Below are positions 31,007-38,896 of a stretch of 64,000 bases of DNA, piece after piece (within the stretch, counting starts at the first letter, position 1; the number at the start of each line of letters is the position of its first letter). The stretch lies in the NCBI GenBank assembly GCA_026552955.1, contig JAPMTS010000021.1:1-64000 (forward strand). Reading direction: 5' to 3'. The position numbers were made by a program, and so were the translations under genes. The notes under the pieces were generated by a model. That model searched no databases. It was not told the DNA's origin and saw nothing but the letters and a program-made list of their open reading frames with translations. This stretch comes from Candidatus Methanoperedens sp. Lineage in GTDB: Archaea > Halobacteriota > Methanosarcinia > Methanosarcinales > Methanoperedenaceae.

Positions 31007-32074
31007 CTAATCCGATCCGGAAATTTGAAATCTAACCATACCCGCATAAAGCCCGATTGCAACTGCCGCATACCCCCCGCAGTAAACAAGCACTTCTGCC
31101 CCAATAGAATTGGCGCCAAGCCTCGTTACCAGGTTAAAAGGAGAATTCGTGAAAATATAACCCACGAGGAACATCAATATAAGCACAAGTGAATACAAAT
31201 ACTGTGAGATCATCCTCTTCTTATATCTGATTGCTATTATTGCTCCGAGAATTACAACGATCGCTGCGATAATTGCGCACAGCAGAAGGATGAACCCGAT
31301 GTTATAAACAATGACCCCATTTAACCTCAACAGAAGAAGCCATAAAAATGCCTGGGCTGGGACAATAATTATGGCCGTGATCATCTTTCCGTTCACTATC
31401 TGTGAAAATGACACCGGGGAAACCAGTAGCAAGTCCATGGTCTTACGTTCATATTCCTCGGTCAGCATATCGATTATCAAACCGCCGGAAATGAAAACCG
31501 GTGTGAAAACGAGAAGTGGAATAAGTATCCCGTATATGAATTCAAAATAGGTGGATGTTTTTTCAGGAATATTATCAACATAGAGTCTTATGGGTTCAAA
31601 ACCAATTCTTTGTCCTCGCATATCCCGGACATAGCCTTCATATTCCTCCAGGGGTTTTTTTAGCTGCAGCGTTACGAAAGTGCCCCTTATGTCCGATTTT
31701 GGAAGGTAGATGACCAGGTTGATAATTTCCTTTCCTCCCGGGTCCTCATCAGGGATGACCACTATGGCATCGATTTTATTGTTGTCAAAATCAGAACGAG
31801 CAGAGACAATGTCTGCATAATAATGCGGATTCACCTGGCTATCTTTGATGAATCGTGCCAGTTCTCCCTGTCCCACAATTCCCACATCTGCCCTGGGACT
31901 GTCGTATTTGCTAAGAGAGGAGGGATCAAAAAAGGAAGCAAGACCTATTACGATCAGAGACGAGAAGGAAGCAATTAACAATTGCACGATAATTGCAAGC
32001 AGGAGCGTTTTTTCATTCAGGAGGGATCCTATCTCTTTTTTTACTATGACTCCTGTATTAGCCAAAAACAACAC
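31007..32074 (-). CDS. ABC-2 type transporter permease
   Basis: 355 residues. One N-terminal helix (about 25-47), a long extracytoplasmic region (about 50-175), then five helices from about 178 onward, the ABC-2/NatB layout with TEEYERKTMDLLLVSPVSFSQIVNGK as the cytoplasmic coupling segment. The start is GTG at 32074 inside the end of the larger permease gene; nearby TTG codons are alternatives. It forms an exporter with the permease upstream and the divergent ATPase at 33870. Confidence 0.85.
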   Translation of the reverse strand: MLFLANTGVIVKKEIGSLLNEKTLLLAIIVQLLIASFSSLIVIGLASFFDPSSLSKYDSPRADVGIVGQGELARFIKDSQVNPHYYADIVSARSDFDNNKIDAIVVIPDEDPGGKEIINLVIYLPKSDIRGTFVTLQLKKPLEEYEGYVRDMRGQRIGFEPIRLYVDNIPEKTSTYFEFIYGILIPLLVFTPVFISGGLIIDMLTEEYERKTMDLLLVSPVSFSQIVNGKMITAIIIVPAQAFLWLLLLRLNGVIVYNIGFILLLCAIIAAIVVILGAIIAIRYKKRMISQYLYSLVLILMFLVGYIFTNSPFNLVTRLGANSIGAEVLVYCGGYAAVAIGLYAGMVRFQISGSD

Positions 32075-33818
32075 CCCTTACCAGGTAAAGATTATAGGCA
32101 GCATGGACCATCGATGCTATGACAACGCAGGCCAGGTACTCCCGATGGCCCAGGTACCGGATTGCCAGGGAGGACGATATTGTGGAAGTTACATGCAGGA
32201 GCAAGGGAAAAACCAGAAGTCCTATCCCCATCACTGATCCGAACGCCGAACCGGCGATACTGGCAACAACTACAAGAAGCAGAAGCTTTTCACCCGCAAA
32301 AAAACCAAGACCGGATAATACTGCAAATTTCAGGGCATTGGCAGTCGTAACGTCAGCCATTTTCCTTGAAAATACCGTATATATTCCCCCTGATTTTATA
32401 AGTTCTTCAATGAAAGCTGCCACAATAATAAAAAAGAATATTCCGATGCGGATAGGAAAATTGAACATAAGGACGATAAGCATTAACTGGATTGAAAATA
32501 CAAGAGGCAAAAGTGCGATACTCAGGGAGAAAAGCGGGAAAGGCACTCGTTTAATGAATTCCTGGATCGAATCCAGGAGTTTTTCTTTGATGGACTTTTG
32601 TGTGAACAGGTCTTCTTCCCTGTAAATGAAAATCCCGAATACGAATATAAGGATAGATAACAGGTACAATGGAGTTGTTGAGAACAAATAATCGCTTACA
32701 GACACGACTTCATTCTCAAGCAGCCTGACAACAAGGGTTATCGGGGAAATGATGCTTATCGCATGGATATTTGCAAACATCGCAGGAAAGAAGATGTAAC
32801 CGGATAGGAAAACCGAAAGGAAGATCAGCACAAAACTGAGTTCCTTGAAACTTCGTGCAATAATCGCCCCCAAGAAACTTGTTGAGAGAAACATCAGGGA
32901 AACAGGCAGCATTATCAGGATTATCCAGGGGCTTCCTCCCAGGTTCAATGTCATTATTGCCACAAGCGCCATTGAACCCAGAAGATACGGCAGAAGCTTA
33001 CCAAGGACTATCTGGTAGGCATTGACCGGTGATACGAGCAAGAGTTCACCTTTTCTCTTAATTCTTTCATCCATTATGCTTGATGAAAAGAACTGCGCGA
33101 TAAAATAAATAGGAAAGATAAATATGAAACTGAGAACGACCGATTTAAAAGGAACGGGCGGATCAAAATGAGATGGGGTTGCAAGTGATTGGCCGCTGAT
33201 GAGTGAGACCTTCTTTATTTCGGTGATCTCTTTAATGGAAGGAGTATTTCCAGATGGTTTTTCCGGGATTTTTTCAATTCCCTGTTTTTGCGCCTCCGGT
33301 GATGCGGTGGATTTAACGTGTGATTTTTCGATCTGTGGCAGTGTATTGATCGATGGAGTATGAAAAGCCTGTTCCCGGGCAATATTCTTAATCGTGATCC
33401 ACACCGGAAAAGTATTATTCAGGTCATTATATGATAATAACCTGGCTTCATCATAACCTTTTATTGCTTTGTCTATGGCATCCAGGGCGGATAAGGACTT
33501 ATCAGTGTCATGGTAGGAGATCTGTGCCCCGTTTATGAGGATATCAAATCCTTCATTTTCAAAAAGAGATTTTGCATTACTATCACCTGCCACGTGAACT
33601 TCGAATTTATCATCGCTTTCTAAAACCCTGGCAAGGGATGGATCTGTTACTGCGATCCTGTAAATATTATCATTAATATGAAGACCTGACTGTGCGGCAA
33701 AAAAAGAACTCATACCGATCAAGATCAATATAATGAAAGAAAGGAAACGGGTTTTAAGGCTGAAACTTGATTTTGTCCTCCTTAATTCCCATCTGGCTAC
33801 TGTCAATATTCGACTCAT
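32058..33818 (-). CDS. ABC-2 permease fused to a PrsW-like intramembrane protease domain
   Basis: 586 residues from ATG at 33818, where ABC-2 type homology begins (SRILTVARWELRRTK); the longer frame would run into the divergent ATPase gene. Residues 1-430 form an ABC-2 permease with one N-terminal helix, a long outer loop and five helices (ERIKRKGELLLVSPV coupling segment). The C-terminal ~150 residues add more helices with the PrsW (M82) motifs: EELIK (EExxK), GLGFFAGEKLL (FxxxE), LLLHVTSTIS and MVHAAYN. So a putative intramembrane metalloprotease is joined to the exporter. Its substrate could be the exported cargo or a signalling protein; this is inference. Confidence 0.82.
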   Translation of the reverse strand: MSRILTVARWELRRTKSSFSLKTRFLSFIILILIGMSSFFAAQSGLHINDNIYRIAVTDPSLARVLESDDKFEVHVAGDSNAKSLFENEGFDILINGAQISYHDTDKSLSALDAIDKAIKGYDEARLLSYNDLNNTFPVWITIKNIAREQAFHTPSINTLPQIEKSHVKSTASPEAQKQGIEKIPEKPSGNTPSIKEITEIKKVSLISGQSLATPSHFDPPVPFKSVVLSFIFIFPIYFIAQFFSSSIMDERIKRKGELLLVSPVNAYQIVLGKLLPYLLGSMALVAIMTLNLGGSPWIILIMLPVSLMFLSTSFLGAIIARSFKELSFVLIFLSVFLSGYIFFPAMFANIHAISIISPITLVVRLLENEVVSVSDYLFSTTPLYLLSILIFVFGIFIYREEDLFTQKSIKEKLLDSIQEFIKRVPFPLFSLSIALLPLVFSIQLMLIVLMFNFPIRIGIFFFIIVAAFIEELIKSGGIYTVFSRKMADVTTANALKFAVLSGLGFFAGEKLLLLVVVASIAGSAFGSVMGIGLLVFPLLLHVTSTISSSLAIRYLGHREYLACVVIASMVHAAYNLYLVRGVVFG

Positions 33819-33869: not shown

Positions 33870-34751
33870 ATGAATGAAATTGAAGTAACAGGACTCAGGA
33901 AAGAATATGGCAGTTTCACCGCTGTTGAGTCCCTGGATTTTAATGTCCAAAAAGGCGAGATTTTCGGTATCGTGGGGCCAAATGGTGCAGGAAAGACCAC
34001 TACTCTTAAAATGTTGAGTGGATTAATTATTCCCACCAGCGGTAAAATAAGAATACAGGGATCGGATATTGGGGAAAATTCCCGGGCAATAAAACAGAAG
34101 CTTGGTTTCCTGCCCGAGGAAAGTCCATTATATGAAGGGATGACTGCAAATGATTACCTCATGTTTTTCGCAGAAATATACGGATTAACAAAGGAAACCG
34201 CATCCGTCAGGATAAGAGAACTCCTTTTTGCCCTTAAACTTGATGCGAAAGACAAAAAAATTGGCGAAATGTCAAAGGGAATGCAGCGAAAGGTGGCAAT
34301 TGCAAGGGCATTGATAAATAATCCCGAATACCTCGTCCTGGATGAGATGACATCAGGTCTTGATCCCACAACATCCAAATATCTTTCAGATTTTGTATTA
34401 GACCTCAAAAAACAGGGAAAAACCATACTATTTAGCGCACATAACCTGTACCAGGTCGAAAGCATATGCGACCGCGTTCTCATAATGAACCGGGGAAAAG
34501 AGATTTCTATCGGCAGTATGCCCGAAATAAAGAAAATGTGCGGGGGTATTGAATATTCGATCGAGTTTCTTGCAAAGGATGACTTTGATTTTGCCGCTGT
34601 GAAAAATAACGGGAATTTCCTGGCAAAAACAAATAATATTGATGAATTTAACCGGATTACAGGCTGGGTGGCAAAGCACAACGGTCAAATCATAAATTTG
34701 AAGACCGCAGAGACTTCACTTGAAGATATTTTCCTCAAACTGATGAATTGA
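33870..34751 (+). CDS. ABC exporter ATPase (NatA-like)
   Basis: 293 residues: Walker A GPNGAGKTT (about 36-44), signature MSKGMQRKV, Walker B YLVLDEMTSGLD and H loop SAHN. A C-terminal extension of about 75 residues is common in exporters paired with ABC-2 permeases. It is divergent from the PrsW-fused permease, with 51 bp between the starts, so one control region drives both halves of the transporter. It converges on the lipoprotein gene. Confidence 0.93.
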   Translation: MNEIEVTGLRKEYGSFTAVESLDFNVQKGEIFGIVGPNGAGKTTTLKMLSGLIIPTSGKIRIQGSDIGENSRAIKQKLGFLPEESPLYEGMTANDYLMFFAEIYGLTKETASVRIRELLFALKLDAKDKKIGEMSKGMQRKVAIARALINNPEYLVLDEMTSGLDPTTSKYLSDFVLDLKKQGKTILFSAHNLYQVESICDRVLIMNRGKEISIGSMPEIKKMCGGIEYSIEFLAKDDFDFAAVKNNGNFLAKTNNIDEFNRITGWVAKHNGQIINLKTAETSLEDIFLKLMN

Positions 34752-35628: not shown

Positions 35629-36390
35629 ATGAAACTAGAAAAAATCCTCCTCATGGATGACAAAGGGATATCTGAAATAATAGGGATAATTTTAATACTG
35701 GGAATTATTGTCATATTTTTGGGAATCCTGCAATCAAAGTCTGTTCCTGAATGGAACAAAGAAATAGAAGCAGGCCATTTCAATACCATTTTCGATGACG
35801 TTCTCGATTTAAGACAGGCATTACAGGAAACTGCCATTTATGTTTCACCCAGGACGACAGTAGTTCATGCAGCTCTTGATTATCCCACCAGGATGTTCCT
35901 TCAAAATTCTCTAAAACCAGGGGCTACAATCTCAACAATGAACAACAATCAAATCAGAATAAGCTATAACGGTACTACCACCGAAGTGGTAAATTCCTGC
36001 ACAATCCGGATCAAGGAAAATTACAACTATTTCTCAGCACCGGAACTTATTATCGAACATGGTATGATAATAGGCAAGGTTGGACATACCAACTATACTA
36101 TAGATGATCCTCTTATGAATAACAAAACTATAGACCTTTATTTAGTCGAATGCGAAAATAGTTCTATCGGTACAACATCATCGATGAATATTCATTTATT
36201 TCCTGTCATGGTAAGCAATCAATCTGCCACTAATGCATCCATAACATTTACAACGGACTATCCAGAATTATGGGATACCTATCTTGAATCAATCAATGTA
36301 GATGGTGATCCGCCCTTTGAAAATGAAATTACCATGAATTATAATAACGCAACGAGAATAAGAACATTCATTACACGTATTATTGTGTAG
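35629..36390 (+). CDS. archaeal type IV pilin-like surface protein
   Basis: The N-terminus has a class III signal: MDDKGISEIIG followed by a hydrophobic helix (IILILGIIVIFLGILQ), expected to be cut after Gly by a FlaK/EppA-type peptidase and built into a pilus. The initiator may be the ATG at 35629 or at 35653 just before MDDKG. The remaining 220 residues are a beta-rich domain with many sequons (NGT, NSS, NAS). About three quarters of residues look identical to residues 1-250 of the protein encoded at 36465-38810 on the other strand. The type IV pilus machinery lies 4-8 kb away. Confidence 0.82.
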   Translation: MKLEKILLMDDKGISEIIGIILILGIIVIFLGILQSKSVPEWNKEIEAGHFNTIFDDVLDLRQALQETAIYVSPRTTVVHAALDYPTRMFLQNSLKPGATISTMNNNQIRISYNGTTTEVVNSCTIRIKENYNYFSAPELIIEHGMIIGKVGHTNYTIDDPLMNNKTIDLYLVECENSSIGTTSSMNIHLFPVMVSNQSATNASITFTTDYPELWDTYLESINVDGDPPFENEITMNYNNATRIRTFITRIIV

Positions 36391-36464: not shown

Positions 36465-38810
36465 TTAGGAGGGGGTTAGAGATCTTACCGTCAAGTCATA
36501 GAGAATTGGCGAAGTATCTCCTGATGGAATTTGAAATGTTGTCTCTATTTCCACATATCTTCCTTTTAACATTGTATCCAATTGAACTCCATTTTCTGCA
36601 TTTTTCCATGATGACCAGTTTGCTGTATCATTCGATGCTCTTACACTTACTTTTATAGATGTGCCTGCTGGTTCACTGCTATTCCATGAGATGGTGCCCC
36701 ATGATGTGTTTGCAGTCCCACTATCGAATATGATAGTCCATGTTCCTATTGTTGTTGTTATTGTCTGTGCTATGAAACCAGTCATATCACTGTATGTATA
36801 ATGCCCTCCACTTCCGTTGATATCCTTTTTGAGATCGATTGTGTTTGTTGCCGGATCTATCCGGTATATATTATTACTGCCGATATCAGTTACCCAGACT
36901 TTGCCTGCTTCATCCACAGCAACGCCTGAAGGATTTTTGAAACCAGATATTGTTTTTAAGAGATTTCCGTTACTATCGTATCTGGATACGCTGTTATATG
37001 CCCCGCTACTGTTTTTGTCAATGCCTGCTACCCAGATGTTATTATCGCGGGTTGATACAACACCTCTATATGTCCTTGCCGGAATATTCCACATTATTAC
37101 TGGTTTCGTATCATTAATATCAACTTTAACAAGCCGGCTGTTACCTGAAGTCAGATATCCGGCAGTAAACAGATGACCTGAGTAATCAAGACAGAGTCCA
37201 TAGGTGTTATTGATACTTATCTTTTTAATATCAGTAAGGTTTGAAGTATTAATTCTCAGAACATGGTCACGAAGTTTCGCAGACCAGAGTATGCCTTTTT
37301 TATCTATCACTGCTCCATAAGCCCAATGTCCCCAGGGCGAAACATCAATGATATTTTTTATTTGACCGGTTGCCCCATCGATATAAAAGTATTTACTCGT
37401 TGCATAAGTCCCGGCCCAGAGATTATTATTTGCATCGATAGCTAATCCTCGTGGTGCAGTACCAAGGTAGTTGGTATCATAAGATCCTGTGTATGTTCCT
37501 GGTATAAATGTGCCTTCCTTGCCAGATATCAAGACGACTTCATAAAGAACACACTCGTCCTTACCCCAATCAAGAAGCTCATTACCTGTAATATTTCCAT
37601 CATTATTTGTATCTCTGGAAGATTGTATGGTACCATCATCGTTTCTATCCAGGCAATGACCTGAATCATAATTTCCTATTTTAACTACTGTTCCGGCCTG
37701 TCTCGTGCCTACCCAGACATCACCCCTAAGATCCACCGTTGTTCGTGAAGGATTCCCCCCATGACTTGGATTTGAATTAACCCGATACCTTCCGGTCTCC
37801 TTTCCGGTCCGTGTGTCAATTTTAGAAATTGTGCCCAAATTTGTATTTGGTACCCAAATAAAGGAATAATTTACTTCTGCAAGATCGGAAGTGTTGATTT
37901 GCAGTTGATCATCGATTACATCATGATTTATATTGGTCAATATCCCTTCATCGAAATCAGCATTTAGTGTATATGTTCTGGAGATAACTGTTGTTGGAGA
38001 AGGGGTAGGGGTGGGCTCAGGAGTGGGTGTAAGAGTAGGTTCAGGAGTGGGTGTTCCAGTAGGGGTGGGTATTAATTCAATATCAAAACTCGTAATGAAT
38101 GTATTTATGCTCGTTGAGTTGGTGTAATTCAGAGTAATTTCGTTTCCAGATACATTCGAGTTTACCTTGATTGATTTAAGATACTTATCCCATAATTCTG
38201 GATAGTCCGTTGTAAATGTTATGGATGCATTATTAGCAGATTGATTGCTTAATCGGACCGGAAACAAATGAATATTCATCGATGATGTTGTACCGATAGA
38301 ACTATTTTCGCAGTCTAACAAATAAAGATCAATTGTCTGGTTATTCATGAGAGGATCATCGAGAGTATAGCTTACGTGTCCAACCTTGCCTATTACCATA
38401 CCATGTTCGATAATTAGTTCTGGTGCTGAGAAATAGTTATAATATTCCTTGAGCTGAATTGTACAGGAATTTACCACTTCGGTGGTAGTACCGTTATAGC
38501 TTATTCTGATTTTCTTGTCGTTAAATGTTGAGATTGTAGCCCCTGGTTTTGGAGGATTTTGAAGGAACATCCTGGTGGGATAATCAAGAGCTGCATGAAC
38601 TACTATCGTTTTGGGTAAATAATAAAATGCCGTTCTTTCTATTCCTTGCCTGATATTTAGCGTGTCGGTATGAAGTTTATTGAAATGCTCTGTCTCTATT
38701 TGTTCATTCCATTCAGGAACAGACCTGGATTGTATGATCCCCGCAAATATGACTGAAATTACCAATACCAGTAAAATCCCAATCAGTGCCGAGATTCCTT
38801 TGTCATCCAT
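36465..38810 (-). CDS. pilin-like protein extended by a linker and beta-propeller with calcium-loop motifs
   Basis: Starts MDDKGISALIG plus a hydrophobic helix, the same pilin signal and ~250-residue domain as the protein at 35629-36390. The ATG at 38810 was chosen because the longer frame begins at TTG without paralogue similarity. A Thr/Pro linker (TPTPEPTLTPTPEP type) follows. Then a repeat domain of about 350 residues with NHL/Vgb-like propeller blades (DLRGDVWVGTR, DANNNLWAGTY, DEAGKVWVTDIGSNNIYRIDP). Inside it are two EF-hand-like loops (DRNDDGTIQSSRD and DTNNDGNITGNE). The C-terminal ~100 residues resemble a beta-sandwich. Probably a tip or decorated pilin, or a surface adhesin. Confidence 0.82.
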   Translation of the reverse strand: MDDKGISALIGILLVLVISVIFAGIIQSRSVPEWNEQIETEHFNKLHTDTLNIRQGIERTAFYYLPKTIVVHAALDYPTRMFLQNPPKPGATISTFNDKKIRISYNGTTTEVVNSCTIQLKEYYNYFSAPELIIEHGMVIGKVGHVSYTLDDPLMNNQTIDLYLLDCENSSIGTTSSMNIHLFPVRLSNQSANNASITFTTDYPELWDKYLKSIKVNSNVSGNEITLNYTNSTSINTFITSFDIELIPTPTGTPTPEPTLTPTPEPTPTPSPTTVISRTYTLNADFDEGILTNINHDVIDDQLQINTSDLAEVNYSFIWVPNTNLGTISKIDTRTGKETGRYRVNSNPSHGGNPSRTTVDLRGDVWVGTRQAGTVVKIGNYDSGHCLDRNDDGTIQSSRDTNNDGNITGNELLDWGKDECVLYEVVLISGKEGTFIPGTYTGSYDTNYLGTAPRGLAIDANNNLWAGTYATSKYFYIDGATGQIKNIIDVSPWGHWAYGAVIDKKGILWSAKLRDHVLRINTSNLTDIKKISINNTYGLCLDYSGHLFTAGYLTSGNSRLVKVDINDTKPVIMWNIPARTYRGVVSTRDNNIWVAGIDKNSSGAYNSVSRYDSNGNLLKTISGFKNPSGVAVDEAGKVWVTDIGSNNIYRIDPATNTIDLKKDINGSGGHYTYSDMTGFIAQTITTTIGTWTIIFDSGTANTSWGTISWNSSEPAGTSIKVSVRASNDTANWSSWKNAENGVQLDTMLKGRYVEIETTFQIPSGDTSPILYDLTVRSLTPS

Positions 38811-38896
38811 CAGGACAATTTTTCTTTTTTCATGTAGACAACTTCTATTCTCAATAAACAGCCCGCCTTCATTGATCAATATTCCATCTTCCTGGT

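Follow-up and report, generated by a model that had tools for sequence, protein, structure and literature searches.

An ABC-2 exporter permease carrying a PrsW-like domain in Candidatus Methanoperedens and other Halobacteriota

Introduction

Can a single archaeal membrane protein combine a subunit of an ABC exporter with an intramembrane protease and, if so, what might the two parts do together? The question is raised by a gene of Candidatus Methanoperedens sp., located in a 64,000-nucleotide stretch of contig JAPMTS010000021.1 that was analysed as a whole and is referred to below as the window. A sequence-only reading of the window had described this gene as a complete ABC-2 permease followed by a C-terminal extension with the motifs of the PrsW (MEROPS M82) proteases, and had placed it in a dedicated system with a divergent ATPase and a second permease.

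A link between proteolysis in the membrane and export by ABC transporters has been suspected in Firmicutes, where loss of EcsAB inhibits intramembrane proteolysis by RasP and a membrane ‘cleaning’ role was proposed, the cargo of Ecs-type transporters being left open (PMC2996298), and where PptAB exports peptides matured by the membrane protease Eep (PMC7564271). One protein that physically unites exporter and protease would make such a link directly testable. It also bears on the PrsW-type proteases of archaea; a review names one PrsW homologue in Haloferax volcanii, of unknown function (PMC9263693).

Results

A single frame encodes the permease and its extension

The gene was indeed found to be one intact open frame of 586 codons from its ATG (Table 1), in agreement with the sequence-only reading, and residues 26-396 of its product matched the ABC2_membrane_3 profile (PF12698) at E=2.7e-16. 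Together with the cognate ATPase encoded next to it, this match identifies the protein as an ABC-2 exporter permease. The fusion gene is kept in 68 public loci, and among the matches listed from Halobacteriota the fusion is one unbroken frame in nearly all homologues; thus, it is not an artefact of frameshift or assembly. In a few draft genomes the frame is broken or split (L052:5517-7269, G415:C345:35-1893, G430:C212:1422-3269), for which assembly errors are the simplest cause.

The full-length AlphaFold2 model (pLDDT 76.5, residues 140-220 unreliable) comprises one transmembrane helix, an alpha/beta extracytoplasmic domain of ~180 residues, five helices and a cytosolic linker, which together make up the permease part, and then five more helices. 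Within the linker, E401-F405, Q407, K408, K413 and D416 are invariant. It is to be noted that in all fusion homologues this segment, REEDLFTQK....K..D (residues 400-416), varies no more than the active-site motifs do.

Table 1. Features of the fusion gene and of the genes next to it in the window.
Feature	Residues	Position	Strand	Basis and remarks
Second ABC-2 permease, protease-free		31007..32074	-	PF12698 1.6e-21; start overlaps fusion gene end
Fusion gene: ABC-2 permease and PrsW-like domain	586 aa	32058..33818	-	ATG start; stop codon included
Permease part	1-424	32547..33818	-	PF12698; AlphaFold2 model; positive-inside count
Extracytoplasmic domain between TM1 and TM2	44-223	33150..33689	-	Model; residues 140-220 low confidence
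Conserved cytosolic linker REEDLFTQK..K..D	400-424	32547..32621	-	Joins permease to protease-like domain
PrsW-like intramembrane protease domain (putative), five TM helices	425-586	32061..32546	-	hhalign; PF13367 in homologues; model
Motif 1, EELIK	E471, E472, K475	32394..32408	-	83/83 rows
Motif 2, GFFAGEK	F506, E510, K511	32286..32306	-	F506, E510, K511 in 83/83 rows
Motif 3	H542	32193..32195	-	83/83 rows
Motif 4, HAAYN	H572, Y575, N576	32091..32105	-	H572 and Y575 in 83/83 rows
ABC ATPase, DrrA/NatA-like		33870..34751	+	Divergent, 51 bp from fusion gene; PF00005 1.7e-32
DUF5803 protein, lipobox and C-terminal TM helix		34759-35442	-	Adjoins ATPase, convergent

Sequence evidence for homology of the C-terminal domain to PrsW

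The C-terminal domain comprises 160 residues in five helices, and the four strings that had been read from the sequence are present exactly as quoted and in PrsW/M82 order, namely EELIK (residues 471-475), GLGFFAGEK (503-511), LLLHVTST (539-546) and MVHAAYN (570-576). In an alignment of 83 homologue rows, which reaches Methanomicrobia at about 26-31% identity to the window protein, E471, E472, K475, F506, E510, K511, P538, H542, H572 and Y575 are identical throughout, and position 576 is N, or D in some Methanomicrobia. The EExxK motif of PrsW / M82 is thus formed by E471, E472 and K475, and its HxxxN/D motif by H572 and N576, while H542 is the additional His of the fifth core helix, which marks PrsW and is absent from CPBP proteases (PMC4602095). 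In motif 2 the F and E are invariant, whereas the N of the stand-alone FxxxEN is replaced by an invariant K; because of this change from EN to EK, ‘PrsW-like’ is a safer name than ‘PrsW’.

The PrsW profile match that the sequence-only reading had proposed as a check was obtained for homologues but not for the window protein itself. Neither the full-length window protein nor its domain alone matched PF13367 at E<1, the window's own genome gave no PF13367 match, and the tail (residues ~425-586) matched no Pfam or NCBIfam model. When homologue domains were scanned alone, 8 of 27 matched PF13367 at E<1; the best was that of a divergent bridging homologue, L046 (7e-9, nearly the whole profile), which together with the domain of L052 (2.6e-5) scored above the curated cut-off. 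When 295 genomes were searched in all six frames, this cut-off was likewise exceeded by several reading frames of 600-820 aa located at fusion-gene sites. The profile is marginal for this family, since full-length L046 lacks the match that its isolated domain gives.

In a profile-profile comparison by hhalign, the profile of the 27 homologue domains aligned with that of stand-alone archaeal PrsW at E=3e-6 over 144 columns, with EExxK, GxGF..xE, the third His region and HxxYN brought into register. As controls, the CPBP profile aligned over 16 columns only (E=0.013), and an unrelated polytopic protein, the second permease, scored 0.019. A pattern of the four motifs, written to permit N or K in motif 2, was found in 83/83 homologues and in all 11 stand-alone archaeal PrsW sequences, but in none of 13 CPBP proteases and in none of 200,000 shuffles of the C-terminal part. 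A CPBP match, the other result that the sequence-only reading had considered for this region, did not materialize, and a CPBP or Rce1-like identity was rejected: there was no PF02517 match at E<1 in the fusion protein, the first motif is EExxK rather than EExxxR, the third His is present, and the hhalign overlap is the short one just given. The PF02517 matches of the window's own genome sit elsewhere, among the matches listed. Overall, the tail is very probably a PrsW-homologous domain on an ABC-2 exporter subunit, and the domain is probably an active protease.

Predicted topology of the motif residues

The isolated PrsW-like domain was modelled with a pLDDT of 85.6. Family-mean positive charges, counted without the large ectodomain and the C-terminal tail, were 4.5, 3.6, 1.0, 4.3 and 1.9 in the loops assigned inside and 0.4, 0.9, 0.0 and 0.3 in those assigned outside, which places the N-terminus of the permease inside and the C-terminus outside. 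Counted in residues inward from the outer membrane face, this topology sets H542 and H572 at a depth of 7-9, E510 at about 8-11 and E471/E472 at about 15; the motif residues are thus predicted to sit between the mid-membrane and the outer leaflet. Helix register and topology are no more than compatible with a clustering of these Glu and His residues. Fold searches of the PDB returned no significant match for the domain, the best being APH-1 (E 1.1), a relative of PrsW and CPBP (PMC3482391, PMC4602095), and none for the whole model, the neighbours of which include ABC exporters at E 0.1 or worse.

The fusion belongs to a conserved three-gene cassette

The divergent ATPase and the second permease were as the sequence-only reading had described them, and its proposal of a dedicated three-gene system with a PrsW-like fusion is supported by profiles, motifs, phylogeny and gene neighbourhoods. 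The best NCBIfam model for the ATPase is TIGR01188, below its cut-off. Where a locus extends far enough, the fusion is almost always flanked by both genes, and this association holds in Methanosarcinales, Halobacteria and Methanomicrobia alike; the ATPase gene is divergent in Methanosarcinales and Methanomicrobia and co-directional in Halobacteria. Across lineages, the cassettes share no fourth gene and no adjacent regulator or membrane-anchored partner. Among frames of at least 70 aa, nothing resembling a precursor gene is found repeatedly next to the cassette. The sequence-only reading had also suggested that such a transporter could process its cargo or release a signal on export; the search for a cargo gene came up empty, both candidate-looking neighbours being not specific to the system.

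Distribution and history

The survey of the fusion that the sequence-only reading had suggested was made across the phylum Halobacteriota, where the domain profile matched 200/393 genomes and 82 of 136 genera, almost always as one copy. The fusion was found in 34 of 80 genomes of Methanosarcinales and in 31 of 40 genomes of the one family sampled within Methanomicrobia, and it is conserved in cultured Methanolobus and haloarchaea. In Methanosarcinales, the permease never matched without the protease-like domain, except for split-frame fragments in two draft genomes. Plasmid or bacterial relatives were confined to a single haloarchaeal plasmid match. In a 45-row tree, the long branches of which meet at the deepest joins, Methanoperedens, Methanosarcinaceae, the ANME-2c-like sequences, Halobacteria and Methanomicrobia each formed one clade. 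Divergence of the permease part is paralleled by that of the protease-like part (r=0.96), and the two are equally conserved, with mean identities of 0.35 and 0.38, respectively. The lineage clades and the co-divergence indicate a single ancient fusion, passed on mainly by vertical descent, with losses in several genera.

Discussion

Comparison with known systems

No published description of an ABC-2 permease/PrsW-like fusion was found in the literature. A survey of archaeal fusions lists ABC-2 proteins among the largest composite clusters, with proteases unmentioned (PMC11237513), and a haloarchaeal RefSeq record names the fusion protein ‘ABC transporter permease subunit’ only; the present results correct this annotation, which omits the protease-like domain. 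The general concept of a permease joined to an intramembrane protease has a precedent, because NCBI already catalogues a bacterial ABC permease/CPBP protease family, NF041647. In both, an ABC-2 permease is joined to an intramembrane protease from one broad superfamily, but the protease half is CPBP in the bacterial family and PrsW-like in the archaeal fusion. The fusion protein gave no match to NF041647 (cut-off 435 bits, 636 positions), so that orthology to it was rejected, and the cut-off was reached by none of 148 Halobacteriota genomes; the second, protease-free permease matched the permease half (1.5e-12, 47 of the 435 bits, positions 6-256). The archaeal and bacterial fusions are probably independent in origin.

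With PrsW itself (PF13367), the domain has in common the order and spacing of EExxK, FxxxE, H and HxxYN and a membrane-embedded helical domain, and differs in its fusion to an ABC-2 permease, in EK for EN and in the divergence of the window copy from the Pfam model. PrsW-fused toxins and the PrsW-PrsW-like fusion PH0065 (PMC3482391) likewise contain PrsW within a multidomain membrane protein, but none of them includes a transporter. DrrAB/NatAB-type exporters have the same class of ATPase and the same permease fold, while the archaeal system pairs two distinct permeases, one of them fused to a protease-like domain. In EcsAB/RasP and PptAB/Eep, an ABC transporter is functionally tied to cleavage by a membrane protease or to export of its peptides; the proteins are, however, separate, and the protease is of the unrelated S2P class.

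What the fusion may do, and other explanations

Most likely, the fusion protein is a subunit of an exporter, and its PrsW-like domain an active protease that works close to the extracytoplasmic face of the membrane. Starting from the fusion, its PrsW homology, the invariant motifs, the conserved cassette and its vertical inheritance, we infer catalysis, the side of action, the coupling and the class of substrate. The mechanism that we favour, with a probability of about 0.5, is drawn by analogy with EcsAB-RasP and PptAB-Eep of Firmicutes, a coupling that the fusion could hard-wire. The three genes would form a type-2 ABC exporter with a single ATPase and two distinct permeases, the protease being the C-terminal domain of one permease. 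With its site in the mid-to-outer bilayer, this domain would cleave, on the extracytoplasmic side, a protein or peptide anchored in the membrane, and the hydrophobic piece set free would then be extruded or cleared by the ABC-2 pair to which the protease is attached (‘cut-and-clear’). The single copy, the vertical inheritance and the lack of a dedicated cargo gene together suggest a housekeeping role in the envelope rather than the export of one special peptide. Points that count against this explanation are the missing PF13367 match of the window protein, the loss of the L046 match at full length, the K for N in motif 2, the lack of a significant fold match in the PDB and, for the coupling, an analogy drawn from systems with a protease of another family (S2P).

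Alternatively, the transport state or cargo binding might switch the cleavage of a membrane-bound regulator, much as Bacillus subtilis PrsW acts as the site-1 protease for the anti-sigma factor RsiW (PMC4602095; PMC9263693). The large extracytoplasmic domain of the permease could serve as a sensor for such regulated proteolysis, but the cassettes share no adjacent regulator or anchored partner that would be its target. To our knowledge, moreover, archaea do not use sigma/anti-sigma pairs, and we regard this reading as unlikely.

Somewhat less probable still is a domain that merely keeps the PrsW fold for structure, or for lipid or peptide binding, as APH-1 does in gamma-secretase. The K in motif 2 would suit it, as would the fact that the nearest PDB fold, though not a significant match, is the non-catalytic APH-1; an inert domain is, however, hard to reconcile with Glu and His motif residues that are all invariant down to about 26% identity, there being no degenerate copy among the 83 rows.

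Some bacteriocin clusters comprise an ATPase, two permeases and an intramembrane protease. This set of parts would fit a maturation exporter, the domain of which trims a dedicated exported peptide or lipoprotein, as in bacteriocin exporters beside CPBP proteases, and the second permease does match SagH weakly (5.5e-5, far below cut-off). Such an assignment is improbable, and more so than the two preceding ones, considering that, among frames of at least 70 aa, the cassette has no recurrent neighbour resembling a precursor gene and that the single-copy, vertical distribution differs from that of bacteriocin clusters. Chance resemblance, i.e., ordinary extra transmembrane helices with coincidental motifs, could explain why the window protein alone fails to match PF13367, but is contradicted by the profile match, the homologues above the curated cut-off, the shuffles and the invariance, and is hardly credible.

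Returning to cleavage coupled to export, its fullest form, in which a subunit of the transporter itself cleaves substrates within the membrane and the same complex exports the products, in an ancient and widespread archaeal machine, is put forward tentatively and may well prove wrong. If true, an ancient archaeal exporter with an integral PrsW-like protease would be a protease-transporter machine not described before.

Other genes near the cassette

Several neighbours were considered as further parts of the system and set aside. The DUF5803 gene adjoins the cassette in several Methanoperedens genomes and is unlinked in haloarchaea; as a partner, the lipoprotein was rejected, being convergent and, among the haloarchaeal matches listed, at least tens of kb apart or on other contigs. 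An MscS gene lies between the ATPase and fusion genes in Methanolobus and relatives (L017:5117-5929 and other Methanosarcinaceae loci), a restriction to some Methanosarcinaceae that speaks against the channel as a component. An antiphage system was also discarded, PADLOC having given generic ATPase matches only.

A secreted, C-terminally anchored BatD/DUF11-like protein of ~550-610 aa is encoded at L018:8936-10768, L024:8936-10756 and other Methanosarcinaceae loci, directly downstream of the cassette in this family, and at L189:7145-8800 in the window's genome. It often precedes a ~140-aa membrane protein, a small partner that accompanies it elsewhere too, and the pair is widespread in Methanosarcinales. 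The 610-aa protein was rejected as a substrate, since it is present in genera that lack the fusion and, in the window's own genome, at a site away from these ABC genes.

Further along the window, the genes at 35629-36390 (+) and 36465-38879 (-) have a nearly identical N-terminal part (MDDKGISEIIGIILILGIIV..., an archaeal type IV pilin-like start), and the larger one, at 36465-38879, runs on into a repeat-rich, propeller-like C-terminal part; the two look like a duplicated pilin-like surface protein.
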